A stretch of 31,041 nucleotides of DNA. It comes from a virus. Made by a program: the position numbers and the translations under genes. The notes under the pieces were generated by a model. It searched no databases, had not been told where the DNA came from, and saw only the letters and a program-made list of their open reading frames with translations. The stretch is taken from the IMG/VR virus record IMGVR_UViG_3300028837_000222, positions 1 through 31,041 of that record. One strand, 5' to 3'. Below, one piece after another: positions 3,155-16,116 of this stretch. Each line of letters begins with the position of its first letter. Position 1 is the stretch's first letter.

Positions 3155-3784
3155 TCATCCATTGTTTTCCTCATCTAGTTGGAATCTTTCTAATTTAAGT
3201 GTTTTGGATCGTTCGTTTACTTTATCAATCAATTCCTCAAACCATAATCTTATCTGTGGATCAGCCCGGGGATCGTCTCGCACCATTTCCAGCTTCTCTA
3301 ATCCGGTCTGCAAGCGGTAAATCCAGGGCGGTGTTGCGTCCATCGTTTTATTACCACGCCAGGCAAGAATTTGATCCACTGAAGGACCCCTGCCCTCTGC
3401 TTCATACATCGCTACCGATTCCCACAGCATTTGATTTGCTTTATCCTTGCCGGCAGGAATGATATTTCTCCAATGGGAGAACTTCAGGAAGGGAACTGCG
3501 TTGCGTAACGCAGTGTCAACAACAGCAGCAACCCTTTCCCGATCCCGAACCGTGTGCATAGAAATTGAATAAATCTCCCCAACCACCTTCCGTATCGCCG
3601 CCTTAGAATACTCTGGATGATACAGTTCCTGCAGCTCCATTGATAGCTCGCCGCTGCCCCAATAAGCCTCTTCTTGCATCTGCGCTAGGTTTCTATGCTT
3701 ATCTAACAGATCGGTTGAGGCCAGAGCGATGATCGCCTTAGATTGCTCCTCTGTGGGTCTGGGATTTGTAATAGCTTTTGTCAT
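3155..3784 (-). CDS. Phage protein of unknown function with HTH-like segment
   Basis: The protein is 209 residues long, with start ATG 3784 preceded by AAAAGG. A helical stretch near residues 64-82 (IRKVVGEIYSISMHTVRDR) has the look of a helix-turn-helix. It is followed by a Trp-rich region (FSHWRNIIPAGKDKANQML) and an acidic/basic alternating C-terminus. I do not recognise the family; a DNA-binding role is inferred only from the HTH-like pattern. It is the last gene of the leftward early transcript, directly behind the structured non-coding region. Site b of the palindromic motif is embedded in its codons (TALRNAV). Confidence 0.6.
   Translation of the reverse strand: MTKAITNPRPTEEQSKAIIALASTDLLDKHRNLAQMQEEAYWGSGELSMELQELYHPEYSKAAIRKVVGEIYSISMHTVRDRERVAAVVDTALRNAVPFLKFSHWRNIIPAGKDKANQMLWESVAMYEAEGRGPSVDQILAWRGNKTMDATPPWIYRLQTGLEKLEMVRDDPRADPQIRLWFEELIDKVNERSKTLKLERFQLDEENNG
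3496..3513. promoter_or_regulatory. Palindromic 18-mer site b (parS-like)
   Basis: Read on the - strand this is CTGCGTTACGCAACGCAG, only one base away from the perfect palindrome CTGCGTTACGTAACGCAG. It is the best copy in the window. It is 377 bp from the intergenic copy at 3119 and lies within the coding sequence of the 3155-3784 gene. Confidence 0.5.
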
Positions 3785-3805
3785 TTAATAACCTTTTCTA
3801 AAATA

Positions 3806-4003
3806 AAGGGGCGCATTACCCAAGATTACAGCCAGCACCACACTTGACGGGTTACTCGGTTGAAGTTGAGGTATTAGCGCATTTTTGTGTTTCAGCGGAT
3901 GCTTCCTCCGTGTGTTTTTTCTCACCAACACACCTACTTGGCTGGGCTATGGATTCTCTGTTACCACCTTGTTATACCCGCTGGTTTCCCGAATGCGCCC
4001 CTT
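3806..4003 (-). ncRNA. Candidate structured RNA closed by a 12-bp helix
   Basis: The stretch 3785-4074 has no credible gene. On the - strand, AAGGGGCGCATT (4003-3992) pairs perfectly with AATGCGCCCCTT (3817-3806), closing about 174 nt. Inside are further helices: GTGTGTT/AACACAC with a 10-nt loop, CGGA/TCCG with a 7-nt loop, CCAGC/GCTGG plus GGGT/ACCC, and AAGT-AGGT against ACCT-ACTT. A third copy of AATGCGC (3883-3877) could compete for the same 5' strand, which would allow a switch. It lies in transcription order between the zinc protein gene (4075-4371) and the 3155-3784 gene. The family is unknown. It could be a cis-acting leader of the 3155-3784 gene or a processed phage RNA. Confidence 0.5.
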
Positions 4004-4005
4004 AA

Positions 4006-4068
4006 TGGAGTAGGGGGTACTCGAAACCCCGTCCAGTCTTTATGACCTGTCGATTGCCTGTCTACCCC
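4006..4068 (-). ncRNA. tRNA-like mini-fold (acceptor stem and perfect T arm)
   Basis: On the - strand, GGGGTAG (4068-4062) can pair with CTACTCC (4013-4007) over 7 bp with one G-U pair. Immediately inside its 3' strand is GGGGT-TTCGAGT-ACCCC (4030-4014), a perfect 5-bp T stem with a canonical 7-nt T loop (TTCRANY). A discriminator-like A follows and no CCA is encoded. Only 31 nt remain for D and anticodon arms, which is too short for a normal bacterial tRNA. The best internal hairpin is GGTC-ATAAA-GACT. I therefore call it tRNA-like (a D-arm-less or decayed tRNA, or a processing/tRNA-mimic module), not a functional tRNA. It begins 6 nt after the preceding stop and ends 2 nt before the structured RNA. 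Confidence 0.45.
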
Positions 4069-4074
4069 GCTTTA

Positions 4075-4371
4075 TCAAACTTTCCTTTTCATTTTTGTAA
4101 TTACGCCTCTGAGTGCGTTCCTGCTTCTTTCTGTCGCTTTGCGTTTTTCCTGTTCTGAGTCATGCCTTACCCGACAAATCGCTAGTTCATCTTTGAGTTT
4201 TTCTTCTTCGGACTTTCCTATATAATGCTGGCCGTGTCCATTTGGGCAAAAGAAGGATTTATGATCTTTGAGCCGTTTGTCTCTGTGGCTTTTTAGCATA
4301 GCAAATACCAGCCCACAATTGGCACAAGTCTCTATTACAAATTCTGAAGATAACCATATTTTTTGATTCAT
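4075..4371 (-). CDS. Phage zinc-finger / coiled-coil protein
   Basis: I choose ATG 4371, which has GGAG upstream and overlaps the preceding TGA (ATGA). This gives 98 residues (MNQKIW...). It contains CANCG near residue 14 and CPNGHGQHY near residue 40, which together could bind zinc, then a basic coiled coil (EEEKLKDELAICRVRHDSEQ). This layout is frequent in small phage proteins that pair a zinc finger with a charged helix. The function is unknown. Its stop lies just 6 nt before the tRNA-like fold. Confidence 0.6.
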   Translation of the reverse strand: MNQKIWLSSEFVIETCANCGLVFAMLKSHRDKRLKDHKSFFCPNGHGQHYIGKSEEEKLKDELAICRVRHDSEQEKRKATERSRNALRGVITKMKRKV

Positions 4372-4472
4372 TCGTTTTCTCCTTTCTTGGCAGCGGCTAA
4401 TAAGCAAGCACAGAAAAAGCCCAACCAAAAGATTATTGATCCAAAGCAAATCGAAGTTAATACATCCATCAT
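4368..4472 (-). CDS. Very small membrane protein (LGFF type)
   Basis: The frame from ATG 4472 to TGA 4368 encodes 34 residues. One transmembrane segment is followed by LGFFCACLLAAAKKGENE. The protein at 7990-8130 has the matching end LGFFTAALLAAAKRGEHD, which strongly supports both as real related genes. AAGGAGTGA lies just ahead. The start overlaps the previous stop (4469-4472), and the stop overlaps the next start (4368-4371), so three genes are coupled. The function is unknown. Confidence 0.6.
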   Translation of the reverse strand: MMDVLTSICFGSIIFWLGFFCACLLAAAKKGENE

Positions 4473-4684
4473 TCACTCCTTAGTTTTGCGATCCTGCATA
4501 CGGTTGATTTATGTACTCCATATTCGTCTGCGATACGCTGTGATCCCTTTATTCCTTCCTGCCATTCCTGCCAAATCATTTCATGGAAAACTTCTTTGTG
4601 TTCTCGATTGAGTATCTTTTCACGCTCGTGGTCAACCTTCCTTAATAGCCACCAATCTTTCCTGAAGTTTTCTGCGATGCTCAT
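4469..4684 (-). CDS. Small HTH protein (homeodomain/resolvase-like)
   Basis: ATG 4684 is favoured over ATG 4690 because AGGAGG at 4692-4697 is 7 nt from it but only 1 nt from the upstream ATG. The protein has 71 residues. The C-terminal segment GSQRIADEYGVHKSTVCRIA is a helix-turn-helix of the type found in resolvase or transposase C-termini. The N-terminal part is basic, with several Trp. It is likely a DNA-binding regulator; no catalytic domain is present. Confidence 0.6.
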   Translation of the reverse strand: MSIAENFRKDWWLLRKVDHEREKILNREHKEVFHEMIWQEWQEGIKGSQRIADEYGVHKSTVCRIAKLRSE

Positions 4685-9344: not shown

Positions 9345-9683
9345 TTATGCAAGCGTTTCTGGAACCTTTAGGCCCAATCCATCGTACCAGTCCTGAATTA
9401 TCTTCTTTCCGTACCAGCTGCACAACACCTGCCAGGCCCAGCATCTTCCTGCATAAGTTTCTGAGAACTTCGCGCAATCATCGCAGCAGGGCATAAAGTT
9501 TTCCCGGACGTTAATATCTTTGTGTTTCTTCCGCTTGTTATAAACTCGCTTATATACTAAAGCATGGGCCCCCTGAGTTGATCTGTTTACTATTTTCCCG
9601 GGTCTATTCTCTAAGCAGTAAGCGCAATCCAGGGCCTGATCGACAACCAGATCCTTTACGATCTCGTTCCAGGTTTCTTTCAT
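9345..9683 (-). CDS. HNH-like zinc protein, copy 1
   Basis: This 112-residue protein has CAYCLENRPG near residue 20, AHALVYKRVYN in the middle, then NFMPCCDDCAKF and a C-terminal CSWYG region. Two Cys pairs flanking a His and an Asn are reminiscent of HNH/NinG-type zinc nucleases, but the usual HH pair is missing, so activity is uncertain. It is a close paralogue of the gene at 12129-12467 (roughly 80-85 % of residues alike by eye, with matching DNA). Its start overlaps the methyltransferase stop (ATGA 9680-9683). Role unknown; it is clearly tied to the modification cassette. Confidence 0.6.
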   Translation of the reverse strand: MKETWNEIVKDLVVDQALDCAYCLENRPGKIVNRSTQGAHALVYKRVYNKRKKHKDINVRENFMPCCDDCAKFSETYAGRCWAWQVLCSWYGKKIIQDWYDGLGLKVPETLA

Positions 9684-11263
9684 AATAATTCCCTTTGTAT
9701 TACTGATGCAATTCTTCTCTCTGCAATCTCGAAGTAATGTTCATCAATCTCAATTCCTATAAAATCTCTGTTAGTTTTCTTGCAAGCCATTCCTGTTGTG
9801 CCTGAACCCATAAAGGGGTCTAATACAAGTCCCCCCGTTGGTGTTGATGTTAGTCTGCATAAGTATTCCATCAAACTCAAAGGTTTTACGGTAGGATGTG
9901 TATTCTGTTGCTTTGCCTTTATGCTCCCGTATTTTTCGCAAACATCGTCAGGTGTGTTATTCAGTCCCCCGCCTCCCTTCGTTTGTCCTTCCTCCATCCC
10001 CTCAAGTCCCTGGTTGCGTTCTGCCTTTGACGCTTTAGCGCAGTAGAAAAAACGGGCAGCAGAACCGGAGTCGTTGAAACCACTCATCCCGTCCCTAATG
10101 CCAAGCCCCTTTCCGCCACCATAAACTTGAGTTTCCCTTGTATGATTGTGGCGATGAGGCACACTCTTCGAGTCTGGAAATCCAGCCAGCACTTCCTCGC
10201 TTCCATCGTGTATGATGTTACTTGGCCATCTTCCGGCGTTCCCTTGCTCTTTTAGCTTCTGCGTCAAGACGCTCACGGCGTGTGTTATATTTTCGGCGGT
10301 GATGTCTGGCATGGTCGCCCCTTGACATGAGTTCCAAGTTTTCCAGTCTATTGTCAAGTCCTTCGTTATTTTTATGATGGATGATATATCCTTTGGGGAT
10401 TTTGCCAAAGGCATTCTCCCAAATTCTTCTGTGTTCGAATTCTGTTTTGTATTTTCCGCCTTCATTCCATCTAAGCATCCAGTATCCTTGATGGAAATAT
10501 CTTCCCGGCTTGTCTTTGGTGTTTCGCTCGTAGTCTGCTTTGCACATTCTTCCGCAGAATACTGGCAACTTTCCAGTTCTCCAAGTCTTTCGTTCAATAC
10601 CACAATACAAGCAGTTATAAATTCTCGGTTCTTTTGTTCTTCCCATTTTTGCACGCCTCCTTTGCGCACTTTTTGTTCCGTTCCCACTCTCCCCCCGTCA
10701 ATGTTCAAGCCAGCGACACCATGTTTCAATGCGTTCTCCGCAAACGTGCCGTCACGAGGTTTCATGAATACACCAATATATTCCCAAGCTGGCTTCAACG
10801 CTGTTCCCCATCCGTCCCAACCTTCTAGCTTCTTTCCAATGTTGTGTGATTTCGGGAAACCCGACCCGAAAATCCAAGCTACACAATCACGAACCTCCCA
10901 GCCAGCATCCTCAATACCACAAGCTATTCTGTGGAATGTGCGTGTCCCGCCAAAGCAGAACATGAACGCACCAGGCTTCGCTATTCTAAGCGCTTGTAAC
11001 GCCCACGAGTAGTGCCATTCCTGCATCTGTATCCCTGTTGATTTCAAATCGGGTAAGTTGCGTCTTCTGGAAGTCAGTCCATCAGTTTCTTTCTGTGTCT
11101 TTTTGATGTATTTTTGATCAGCTTCAGATTCGTTTCTCCAAAGTTTATCCCATTCCTTCCCCATAAACTGAGGCCCATACGGCGGGTCAGTGATAATCGT
11201 GTCCACGCTGTTGTCCTCAAGCGTTTTCATTACTTCAATGCAGTCACCTAAGATTAGTTGCAT
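9680..11263 (-). CDS. DNA (N4/N6) methyltransferase, beta-type motif order, with nested HNH insertion
   Basis: ATG 11263 is preferred (GAGGAAG about 8 nt upstream) over a TTG two codons earlier; the product is about 527 residues. The catalytic motif DPPY lies near residue 26-29. The SAM-binding motif DPFMGSGTTGMACKKT lies near the C-terminus, followed by FIGIEIDEHYFEIAERRI. This order (IV then I) is that of beta-group amino-methyltransferases. No restriction partner is obvious, so self-protection or regulation is likely. The part from roughly residue 206 to 348 does not resemble a methyltransferase. It is the alternate-frame reading of an HNH endonuclease gene (10218-10646). Conserved sequence resumes at GRWPSNIIHDGSEEV. 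Without the insert the enzyme would be about 385 residues, a normal size. The frame stays open through the insert. Confidence 0.88.
   Translation of the reverse strand: MQLILGDCIEVMKTLEDNSVDTIITDPPYGPQFMGKEWDKLWRNESEADQKYIKKTQKETDGLTSRRRNLPDLKSTGIQMQEWHYSWALQALRIAKPGAFMFCFGGTRTFHRIACGIEDAGWEVRDCVAWIFGSGFPKSHNIGKKLEGWDGWGTALKPAWEYIGVFMKPRDGTFAENALKHGVAGLNIDGGRVGTEQKVRKGGVQKWEEQKNREFITACIVVLNERLGELESCQYSAEECAKQTTSETPKTSREDISIKDTGCLDGMKAENTKQNSNTEEFGRMPLAKSPKDISSIIKITKDLTIDWKTWNSCQGATMPDITAENITHAVSVLTQKLKEQGNAGRWPSNIIHDGSEEVLAGFPDSKSVPHRHNHTRETQVYGGGKGLGIRDGMSGFNDSGSAARFFYCAKASKAERNQGLEGMEEGQTKGGGGLNNTPDDVCEKYGSIKAKQQNTHPTVKPLSLMEYLCRLTSTPTGGLVLDPFMGSGTTGMACKKTNRDFIGIEIDEHYFEIAERRIASVIQRELL
10218..10646 (-). 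CDS. HNH homing endonuclease nested in the methyltransferase gene
   Basis: This 142-residue frame is shifted relative to the methyltransferase. It has its own ribosome binding site (GGAGG at 10660-10656, 9 nt spacing). An N-terminal zinc pair set (C12-x2-C15, C31-x3-C35) precedes a classic HNH homing motif, HHKNNEGLDNRLENLELMS, followed by GDHARHH. The tail is basic. Such free-standing HNH genes insert into conserved phage genes. Here both ends fall inside methyltransferase coding sequence, and its last codons overlap the conserved GRWPSN segment of the host gene. It is likely an active or recently active mobile gene. Confidence 0.85.
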   Translation of the reverse strand: MGRTKEPRIYNCLYCGIERKTWRTGKLPVFCGRMCKADYERNTKDKPGRYFHQGYWMLRWNEGGKYKTEFEHRRIWENAFGKIPKGYIIHHKNNEGLDNRLENLELMSRGDHARHHRRKYNTRRERLDAEAKRARERRKMAK

Positions 11264-11694
11264 TTCCAAACTTCCTCTTCCAGAAACTTGATCGCTTTTC
11301 CATCTTCAACCATCTGAGAAGGAAACCTGAAAACCCTCCATCCCGTTGCCGCAGCATTATTATATTTTTCACAATCTTTAATAAACCCGGAGCCCCTGGT
11401 ATGCCTTCCCCGTGTCCAAACACCGCCTTCAATCTCAACAAGAATCAGGGTTGAATCATCTATGGGAACGCAACGATTCGGATTAGCGATCAAGAAATCG
11501 GATCGCCATTTTCTTTTCGGGTGCCACCTAAACTCTCTGGTATATTCCCCAGGCAATAAATTTTCAGGATCTTTCCCTAAATAAAGTCCTTTTGCTTCCA
11601 ACTGTTTTGCAAATTCAATTTCCCACTTCTCACGCTCCGCTTTCTTCAAGGCTTTTGTATATTCTTCTTTCGTAATCTCGTTTTCAATTGGCAT
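11254..11694 (-). CDS. PD-(D/E)xK-type nuclease-like protein
   Basis: ATG 11694 (AGGAG about 7 nt upstream) is preferred over earlier in-frame starts, giving 146 residues. The core reads FRWHPKRKWRSDFLI, then LILVEIEGGVWTRGRHTRGS and KYNNAAATGWRVFRF. The Asp of RSDF and the Glu-x-Glu of VEIEGG are in the spacing of a PD-(D/E)xK active site (Holliday-resolvase/VRR-NUC-like family common in phages). It might cut recombination intermediates or be the nuclease partner of the methyltransferase that follows. Its end overlaps the methyltransferase start by 10 nt, implying co-expression. Confidence 0.7.
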   Translation of the reverse strand: MPIENEITKEEYTKALKKAEREKWEIEFAKQLEAKGLYLGKDPENLLPGEYTREFRWHPKRKWRSDFLIANPNRCVPIDDSTLILVEIEGGVWTRGRHTRGSGFIKDCEKYNNAAATGWRVFRFPSQMVEDGKAIKFLEEEVWKCN

Positions 11695-11789: not shown

Positions 11790-12132
11790 GGCTTTCTTTT
11801 GCATAAAGATCATGGACGTTATAGTAAATCGGAATCCCGATTTCTTCAGCAACCTCTATTTCCTTTTTTGTGCCTTCGCTATTTTCCCACCCCCCAAGCA
11901 CAAGAACCACGTCACTTACCTTCAACCACTCAAGAGAATAATTATAAAACATATCAACGGTAAATTTACTGTATGGACGCTTGATAATAAAGTCTTTATC
12001 ATGCCAAGGGCAAAAAGGGGCATAACCCCTAAGAAAAAGCTCTGCGCAAACATCTTCGCCAATCCCTATATTCCTCAAGACGGCAAGCACGTTGTTGGCT
12101 GAATACGAACCAGCTACATAAACCTTTTTCAT
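11782..12132 (-). CDS. Nucleoside 2-deoxyribosyltransferase-like (DUF4406-type) protein
   Basis: This 116-residue protein begins with VYVAGSYSA. It has a central region YAPFCPWHDKDFI, then SDVVLVLGGWENSEGTKKEI and a final strand IPIYY. This is the Rossmann-like layout of the NDT/DUF4406 superfamily, in which the glycine-rich N-terminus and the GGWENSxGTxxEI motif bind nucleotide or nucleoside. In phages these proteins are thought to act in nucleotide metabolism or DNA modification, but the substrate is unknown. It overlaps the HNH-like gene upstream (12129-12132), and its end contains the start of the C5-methyltransferase remnant. Confidence 0.7.
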   Translation of the reverse strand: MKKVYVAGSYSANNVLAVLRNIGIGEDVCAELFLRGYAPFCPWHDKDFIIKRPYSKFTVDMFYNYSLEWLKVSDVVLVLGGWENSEGTKKEIEVAEEIGIPIYYNVHDLYAKESHD

Positions 12133-12467
12133 TCAAATACCTCCGGAACTTTCAAGCCCAACCCATCGTACCAATCTTCGATCAGCTTTCTCCCGTGCCA
12201 GCTGCACAAAACCTGCCAAGCCCAACATCTTCCCGCATAAGTCTCAGAGAATTTTTGACAATCATCACAGCAGGGCATAAAATTGAACCGCACGTTAATA
12301 TATTTATGTTTCTTCCTGTTATTATAAACTCGCTTGTAAACTAATCCGTGGGCTCCCTGGGTAGATCTGTTTACTATTTTCCCGGGTCTGTTTTCCAGGC
12401 AATAAGCACAGTCCAGCCCTTGATCAACTACCAGATCCTTTACAATATCGTTCCAGGTTTCAGCCAT
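12129..12467 (-). CDS. HNH-like zinc protein, copy 2
   Basis: Start ATG 12467 (AAAAGGAAAAG upstream) aligns with the start of copy 1, giving 112 residues. It shares CAYCLENRPGKIVNRSTQGA, NFMPCCDDCQKFSETYAGR and DWYDGLGLKVPE with copy 1 at 9345-9683. Differences are scattered and conservative, so both copies have been under selection since duplication. It is the first gene of the cassette, directly behind a promoter with paired operators. Zinc-site pattern and uncertainty are as for copy 1. Confidence 0.6.
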   Translation of the reverse strand: MAETWNDIVKDLVVDQGLDCAYCLENRPGKIVNRSTQGAHGLVYKRVYNNRKKHKYINVRFNFMPCCDDCQKFSETYAGRCWAWQVLCSWHGRKLIEDWYDGLGLKVPEVFE

Positions 12468-12480
12468 TCTTTTCCTTTTG

Positions 12481-12509
12481 TTTATAATAAGGCTCTCTAT
12501 TGTTGACAA
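12481..12509 (-). promoter_or_regulatory. Promoter of the modification cassette
   Basis: On the - strand, TTGTCA (12509-12504), 17 bp and TATAAA (12486-12481) form a good sigma-70-type promoter. Its start site would be near 12474, directly ahead of HNH-like copy 2. It can drive the whole set down to copy 1 at 9345. A palindromic operator overlaps the -35 box. Confidence 0.6.
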
Positions 12510-14820: not shown

Positions 14821-16116
14821 TCACTCAAACAAATTTGTCTGTCCCTGATCTAGCTGAGTTTGATTCCAAACTCTTCGCAATTCTTCTTCTTCTACTTCCC
14901 CAAGAGCATCCCCATAAGTCCCAACTTTCAGCCAAAGATTCTTGATCGTTCCGATTTCCTGGGCTGTCCAGGATTTGGTGCTGCCTTTCCCTTCACCAAG
15001 CAAATATTCAAAGATCGCATATCTGAATATATCCCCGCCTTTCCCGGAAGGAACATAAACGTTCACGACTGAGGCGATCACCTGGGAATCTAGCTTGACC
15101 TGGACCGCATAATCATCAGGAGATTGCTCTAACAATCTGTTGTATTGGGAGATCCCCAGCTGAATGTTCTCTTTTACTTCCTCTGCGCTGTAGGGTTCTC
15201 TTGTTGACTGTGGGGGGTCAATTACCGCTTCTGCGGGGTTTTCAGGGGGAACGGGAGTAACCCATTGATCAGGATGGACTAAATCCGTTAGGGTCCCTTC
15301 TTCGGTTTCTTCTACTATCTCCATTTCCCCAGGTTCTAACATCTGAGCAGCAATACTTTTTGGAAACGCCAGTTGTTTATCTTCTTCCATCCTAGCAGCT
15401 ACCCAATCGGGATCCGCTTTAATTGATATTAAGGATTTTGTCATGCGCTGTTTTTTTCCATCAATAGGAACCATGACTTCGTGATCGCTCCGCATCAACT
15501 TTAAAGGAACTCCCTTAATAATCCCATTATTCAATTCTTTCAATCCGGCCAACTGCTGAGAAATGAACCTGATATCATTCCAGGAGCCGGTGGTAAACAG
15601 CATATAAGCGGCCTCTTTCAACTCAGGCACGATCACCTTAAGCCTTCCGATCGGGTTATATTCCACCGGTTTATTTTGATAATCATATCCTGCAATATTA
15701 TCTACTGGATGGGGCTCTTGTTTTCCTGTTTCCAGGTTTTCCCCATTTCTTACGATATGCTCCCCCGTCTTTCCATCACAACGGAAAAGAACTATTCCCC
15801 CATCTTCTGGTTTTCCATCAGATCTCGCCATCAATCTGGAAGCCGTATAAGCTTCTAAAAAACCATCCCACATTTGTTCTATTTCATTAAACGGTAAGCG
15901 GATATTAATACTTTTGGGTTCTGCCCCATACAACTTAAAAAACAAAGCTTCCAAAGCCACACCTTCTGGATCATCTGAAAATTCTACTTTAAAATAGTCC
16001 AGGTCCACCGGCCTTGTTACTCCTGGCTTTCCTTGTACTGGAACCTGTTCCCCCTTTTTGATTCTCCCAATCTGCGGGAAAGATAACCCCTTGTTAGTCA
16101 ATCCTTTAATCGGCAT
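14821..16116 (-). CDS. Phage Gp3-like (recombination-directionality-factor-like) protein
   Basis: The 431-residue protein starts MPIKGLTNKGLSFPQIGRIK and continues VTRPVDLDYFKVEF, LFFKLYGAEPKSINIRLPF and IVLFRCDGKTGEHI. This series (opening MPI-x-L, x-P-x-x-L-D-x-F, YG-x-x-P, R-C-D-G) matches the phage Gp3-like family, whose phiC31 gp3 member switches serine integrase from integration to excision. Many phages carry it without a serine integrase, and none is visible here. The C-terminal half (acidic linker, then helical part ending in TNLFE) is less conserved. It starts 10 nt inside the previous gene, early in the leftward transcript. A general DNA-binding or recombination role is equally possible. 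Confidence 0.5.
   Translation of the reverse strand: MPIKGLTNKGLSFPQIGRIKKGEQVPVQGKPGVTRPVDLDYFKVEFSDDPEGVALEALFFKLYGAEPKSINIRLPFNEIEQMWDGFLEAYTASRLMARSDGKPEDGGIVLFRCDGKTGEHIVRNGENLETGKQEPHPVDNIAGYDYQNKPVEYNPIGRLKVIVPELKEAAYMLFTTGSWNDIRFISQQLAGLKELNNGIIKGVPLKLMRSDHEVMVPIDGKKQRMTKSLISIKADPDWVAARMEEDKQLAFPKSIAAQMLEPGEMEIVEETEEGTLTDLVHPDQWVTPVPPENPAEAVIDPPQSTREPYSAEEVKENIQLGISQYNRLLEQSPDDYAVQVKLDSQVIASVVNVYVPSGKGGDIFRYAIFEYLLGEGKGSTKSWTAQEIGTIKNLWLKVGTYGDALGEVEEEELRRVWNQTQLDQGQTNLFE

Follow-up and report, generated by a model that had tools for sequence, protein, structure and literature searches.

The closest described counterpart of the element reported here is the ssrA gene of mycobacteriophage DS6A, a phage tmRNA gene that amounts to approximately the tRNA-like domain (TLD) alone, has no tag reading frame, and is classed as "TLD only" (PMC4131195; PMC11915505). 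As set out in the passage of PMC4131195 that cites Mao et al. 2009, a similar molecule is reported to inhibit tmRNA strongly whether or not it can be charged with alanine, perhaps through titration of SmpB; PMC11915505 makes the same statement. No TLD-only tmRNA of a phage other than DS6A was found in the literature that we searched. Among organelles, two plastid tmRNAs (Mallomonadaceae, about 65 bp) have no tag frame, and a mitochondrial tmRNA without a tag frame and TLD-like plastid tmRNAs persist (PMC11915505). In a survey that typed tmRNA with ARAGORN, it was present in 402 of 18,146 phages, and the permuted two-piece tmRNA (RF04321), in which the coding piece is kept and the 3' half comes first, includes that of phage Melnitz (PMC9004378).

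The window analyzed here is a virus record of 31,041 bases, and the region examined within it is an intergenic stretch of approximately 290 nt (3785-4074). The minus strand of 4068-4003 drew attention through a weak tmRNA match on the border of this region; the predicted element there is, judged by its sequence, very probably a TLD-only tmRNA (Table 1). It belongs to a known RNA family and is, among the TLD-only tmRNAs of phages, a new and unusually small one. DS6A ssrA, which could be compared by description only, is likewise little more than a TLD; the window copy differs in having a 14-nt P2 hairpin, in leaving CCA unencoded, and in its adjoining 12-bp inverted repeat. The plastid tmRNAs of the Mallomonadaceae, which lack a CDS, are of the same TLD size, a likeness of description and not of sequence, but are of organellar origin. 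The permuted tmRNA is also a tmRNA gene carried by a phage, whereas the gene in the window has its halves in the usual order and has no coding piece.

Table 1. Features of the intergenic stretch and its flanking genes, in window coordinates, listed along the minus strand.
Feature	Position	Strand	Basis or remark
Upstream gene	4075-4476	-	PHROG 33336 relative
Predicted TLD-only tmRNA with its 5' end at 4068, 63 nt counted through the discriminator	4006-4068	-	RF00023, R1 model, MFE fold
Acceptor stem, 5' strand GGGGTAG	4062-4068	-	7/7 pairs with 4007-4013, third pair G-U
D-loop ACAGGCAATCGAC, tmRNA type, without D-stem	4049-4061	-	Alignment to tmRNA consensus
P2, 4-bp hairpin AGGTC ATAAA GACT (AGGTCATAAAGACT)	4035-4048	-	MFE fold, comparison with other TLDs
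GGAC junction and T-arm GGGGT-TTCGAGT-ACCCC	4014-4034	-	5/5 T-stem pairs
Acceptor stem, 3' strand CTACTCC, and discriminator A	4006-4013	-	CCA unencoded, TTA next
Region that probably forms the 3' trailer of the TLD and the 5' leader of the gene that follows, with the 198-nt domain inside it	3785-4005	-	No homologue, RNA family or protein family
Inverted-repeat arm	3992-4003	strand-neutral	On the minus strand, starts two bases past the TLD discriminator
Inverted-repeat arm	3806-3817	strand-neutral	Perfect match to 3992-4003
Downstream gene, 209 aa	3155-3784	-	Not assigned to any family; a weak match to helix-turn-helix falls below the cut-off

The standard tmRNA model RF00023 matched the window record with 39.8 bits (E 2.3e-16) across model positions 1-374. 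This end-to-end alignment retains the G3-U70 acceptor, the UCGAC D-loop without a D-stem, the GGAC junction and the T-arm, but 318 central positions are deleted, and the window element has neither the mRNA-like domain nor the tag frame and pseudoknots of a full tmRNA. By cmscan it scored 31.2 bits, and it is below the Rfam gathering cut-off for tmRNA of 47 bits. RF04321 gave 18.7 bits, and the tmRNA model scored above the other families of its clan. A covariance model, R1, was built from 25 other phage sequences with the window left out. It gave 42.8 bits for the window TLD and 7.5 bits for the next-best place in the window. ARAGORN did not report the element when run on the window, and no close relative of the window TLD was found.

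The MFE fold of 66 nt is exactly the TLD structure, with 12 of 12 acceptor and T-stem pairs formed; in nearest-neighbor folding of the whole 292-nt transcript, the probability of the TLD acceptor stem is only about 0.5. The G3·U70 pair, A73, the GGAC ahead of the T-stem and a 7-nt T-loop of the UUCRANU type (UUCGAGU) are all present, as is the UCGAC in the D-loop that is common to most viral TLDs. G3-U70 and A73 are alanine identity elements. The P2 hairpin, with 4 bp and a 5-nt loop, takes the place of the whole mRNA-like domain of tmRNA.

Viral relatives were sought in IMG/VR with two patterns. The first specified the D-loop and the T-arm at a short distance from each other and left the acceptor unconstrained; it matched 52 stretches. 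The flanks of 44 of these pair over all 7 bp of an acceptor stem; G3-U70 and A73 occur in every one of the 44, and the pairs at acceptor positions 4-7 vary. The second pattern left the D-loop unconstrained and matched at least 120 stretches. Among the matches listed, at least 49 are distinct new sequences with 7/7 acceptor and 5/5 T-stem pairs; UCGAC is found in 40 of these and GAC in the D-loop of all. There are thus at least 93 viral loci with the TLD-only architecture. ARAGORN called a tmRNA in two of the 52 stretches (L023 and L056), both outside the 44, so that the tool behind the count of 402 in 18,146 phages reported none of the TLD-only loci found here. When the 44 records were searched whole, 41 had a match above the Rfam tmRNA cut-off, 40 of TLD size and one a full-length tmRNA of 396 bases (G032); those below 47 bits include the window and L036 (44.3 bits). 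An SmpB gene was found in none of the 44 records, many of which are fragments, and a host partner would therefore be needed. Many of the TLD-only tmRNAs are situated within phage tRNA arrays (L092, L094, L058, L046, L034 and L016), and others, that of the window included, stand alone. The first pattern also matched 31 stretches of bacterial and archaeal genomes, four of them with the TLD architecture, and two of these four are also present in IMG/VR records (L069 as L031, L090 as L055).

Covariation was assessed in 25 aligned sequences, picked for a complete acceptor and uniform length. In the three helices, 92.8% of cells are paired, compared with 69.2% in shuffled alignments, and 118 cells are changed on both sides, compared with 38. 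The covariation score is 0.619, against 0.150 when shuffled and at most 0.13 when slid. Complete pairing of the acceptor (100%) is partly due to the way the sequences were chosen, but the variety of its pairs and the covariation of P2 are not. In the relatives, P2 typically consists of 5-8 bp and an inner 3-bp hairpin, approximately 28-32 nt in total, which places the 14-nt P2 of the window at the short end; alignment artefacts aside, it is the shortest but one of the set.

TLDs are also present in isolate phages. The TLDs of Streptomyces phages LuckySocke (host S. lividans) and GiJojo (host S. mirabilis) are identical at 78 of 78 positions, whereas their 80-base flanks are about half identical, as in unrelated DNA. 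The TLD of pSt2308 differs in the acceptor and P2, partly by paired changes. None of these three TLDs is annotated as RNA. That of GiJojo (L210 252-332) lies within hypothetical ORF 44 of the annotation; an RNA gene has probably been miscalled there as a protein gene. In Streptomyces phage Alone3 (L209 256-335), the 80-base flanks on both sides are identical to those of LuckySocke (L094 1452-1532), while the TLD itself is alike at 63 of 78 positions (15 differences) and has its outer T-stem pairs broken; it is perhaps a recombination chimera of two TLDs joined at the conserved T-arm. The TLD model gave approximately 34 bits in Gordonia phage GMA2 (L093 1463-1544) and Xanthomonas phage Rb1 (L097 1470-1532), and both elements have broken acceptor pairs and appear to be degenerate and TLD-like.

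Several other identities were considered for the window element. The T-arm is identical to that of four viral tRNA genes, which would be expected of a truncated ordinary tRNA, but this identity is highly improbable given the negative ARAGORN result, the lead of the tmRNA model over its clan, the lack of a 7-nt anticodon loop on a 5-bp stem, and the scores of R1, under which no tRNA gene in the tRNA-rich viral loci used as controls exceeded 27.6 bits. A further explanation is that the phage carries the 3' end of a host ssrA gene as its integration site, attP. Integration at ssrA is common (PMC11915505), mycobacteriophage Milly has such an arrangement beside its integrase, and the window encodes a recombination-directionality-factor-like protein (14821-16116). 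An attP would not need the 5' acceptor strand and the D-loop, however, and the complete 5' half of the window TLD refutes this explanation, to which we attach hardly any weight; no integrase was recognized among the window proteins scanned, and the Milly site scored only 15.5 bits with R1. It is also improbable, if somewhat less so, that the element is a decaying, functionless remnant of a host-derived tmRNA gene. The very short P2, the lack of CCA, the score under the cut-off, and the existence of degenerate copies such as those of GMA2 and Rb1 would be compatible with decay. Against it, none of the 12 pairs is broken and every tmRNA signature base is retained, covariation and conservation are strong among the relatives, and the closing pair of the T-stem is U-A where 76 of 78 relatives have G-C, a change on both sides.

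For the function of the TLD-only tmRNA, the best overall explanation, to which we assign a probability of roughly 0.6, is an RNA that would be charged, bound by SmpB and EF-Tu, and would block host trans-translation. From the sequence, fold, covariation and distribution described above, we infer that the TLD would be expressed and cut from the minus strand transcript at the discriminator base, that the host would add CCA, and that G3-U70 and A73 would direct charging with alanine. The charged TLD would then bind host SmpB and EF-Tu and compete with host tmRNA for stalled ribosomes; having no reading frame on which to resume, it would block host trans-translation during infection. Inhibition of host trans-translation is in itself evenly balanced between true and false. 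The invariance of G3-U70 suggests that charging matters, and a pure SmpB decoy would not need to be charged, which leaves room for a role in tag-less rescue. The TLD would then be a helper: host SmpB would deliver it in its alanylated form, its alanine would be added to stalled chains, and other factors would finish a tag-less rescue. We regard this role as rather unlikely. It is consistent with the invariance of G3-U70 and A73 in 44 of 44 loci whose acceptor was left unconstrained by the pattern, and with the persistence of the tag-less mitochondrial and TLD-like plastid tmRNAs (PMC11915505). On the other hand, in the absence of a stop codon it is not apparent how the chain would be released, and the inhibition of tmRNA by a TLD-like RNA, chargeable or not, that is mentioned in PMC4131195 would favor the blocking role. 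Sequence alone cannot decide between a decoy and tag-less rescue.

With at least 93 viral loci, the TLD-only class is much more common than DS6A, the one published phage case, would indicate. This distribution suggests that the ribosome rescue of the host is a frequent target of phages, whether they interfere with it or borrow it. TLD-only RNAs account for some "gene-free" phage stretches passed over by ARAGORN, and the unannotated TLDs of isolate Streptomyces phages make phage interference with ribosome rescue directly testable. The odds are about level that TLD-only tmRNAs form a large, almost unnoticed class of phage RNA under strong selection, with its own recurrent capped P2, that antagonizes or redirects host trans-translation or performs tag-less rescue with host SmpB, and of which the window holds a near-minimal version, possibly with a 198-nt companion domain.

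The first-pass annotation of this DNA had placed a candidate structured RNA of 198 nt, with two suggested alternative folds, at 3806-4003, inside a transcript between two minus strand genes. Its observations were real, and its interpretation was displaced by about 65 bases: the intergenic stretch does contain a structured RNA, in the form of the 63-nt TLD, whereas the 198-nt domain, for which no homologue was found, has an ordinary folding energy. The two flanking minus strand genes are as described, and 3785-4074 is gene-free to the extent that it holds no start-to-stop ORF of 60 aa; the longest stop-to-stop frames through it are 67 codons on the plus strand and 53 on the minus strand. A search of these frames against PHROG and NCBIfam returned no family match and so recognized no degraded protein gene, which had been named as a refuting outcome. 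The other outcome so named, homologues lacking covariation, was not encountered either. The statement that no known RNA family fits holds for 3790-4004, where there is no fit in Rfam, and not for the adjoining 4003-4068, where tmRNA matches; at curated thresholds, Rfam gave no match.

The perfect 12-bp inverted repeat said to close the domain is present, and so is the third 7-nt copy, at 3877-3883 (GCGCATT on the plus strand, AATGCGC on the minus strand). A second fold that pairs the 5' arm with this internal copy is disfavored: forcing it raises the energy by 12 kcal/mol for the 198-nt RNA and by 7 kcal/mol for the 292-nt RNA, and the ensemble gives these pairs a probability of 0.0. A perfect 12-bp repeat arose in only one of 2000 dinucleotide shuffles of the 292-nt stretch, but the 31-kb window contains two such repeats whose arms lie no more than 250 nt apart, where 0.6 would be expected in a shuffled window, and the statistical support for the repeat is therefore modest once the search space is counted. 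The inverted repeat is real and its function is unproven. Folding energy of the RNA of 3806-4003 is unremarkable on the minus strand (z -1.34) and somewhat better on the plus strand (z -2.29).

Searches of phages and plasmids, and of IMG/VR with patterns of the arms, turned up no DNA related to the 198-nt domain. In IMG/VR, GGGGCGCATT...AATGCGCCCC matched only an unrelated repeat-rich stretch, and a TLD followed by GGGGCGCATT had no match. An unrelated viral intergenic region (L091 540-800) contains many copies of AATGCGCCCCC in both orientations and resembles an iteron array. A transposon or MITE origin of the 12-bp ends was considered and rejected, since the flanks (AAAATA and AATGGA) show no target duplication, and so was a displaced 3' coding part of the tmRNA, there being no tag-like frame and no tmRNA signal in the 198-nt domain. 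Read in the simplest way, this domain combines the 3' trailer of the TLD with the leader of the 209-aa gene. That it is itself a functional structured RNA or a regulatory leader of that gene is unlikely, despite its closing repeat and its location in gene-free DNA immediately ahead of a start codon, because such repeats are expected at 0.6 per window, the z-score on the coding strand is weak, the switch is disfavored, and no homologue was found.

Relatives of the proteins encoded at 3155-3784 and 4075-4476 were not found in IMG/VR. A neighboring SbcC-like protein has one distant IMG/VR locus, on a 497-kb contig, and one neighboring gene has relatives in Gordonia and Mycobacterium phages that are 31-39% identical. 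Elsewhere in the window, the minus strand gene at 14821-16116 encodes a Gp3-like recombination directionality factor (PF18897, E 4e-26), which suggests a temperate phage with its integrase outside this contig. The plus strand gene at 1060-1776 encodes an Imm5-like domain (PF21805) and, after it, a long low-complexity repeat of Ala, Trp, Asp, Gly and Arg. On the minus strand, a DNA methyltransferase (9680-11269) is interrupted in the middle when compared with its profile, with protein residues 1-525 aligned to profile positions 122-348, and a second frame inside it (10218-10646) reads like an HNH homing endonuclease (EFEHRRIWENAFGKIPKGYIIHHKNNEGLDN); the interruption may be an intron or insertion that carries an endonuclease. 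The minus strand also encodes, at 9345-9683 and 12129-12509, two near-duplicate small proteins (TWNEIVKDLVVDQ...DCAYCLENRPGKIVNRSTQGAH...).
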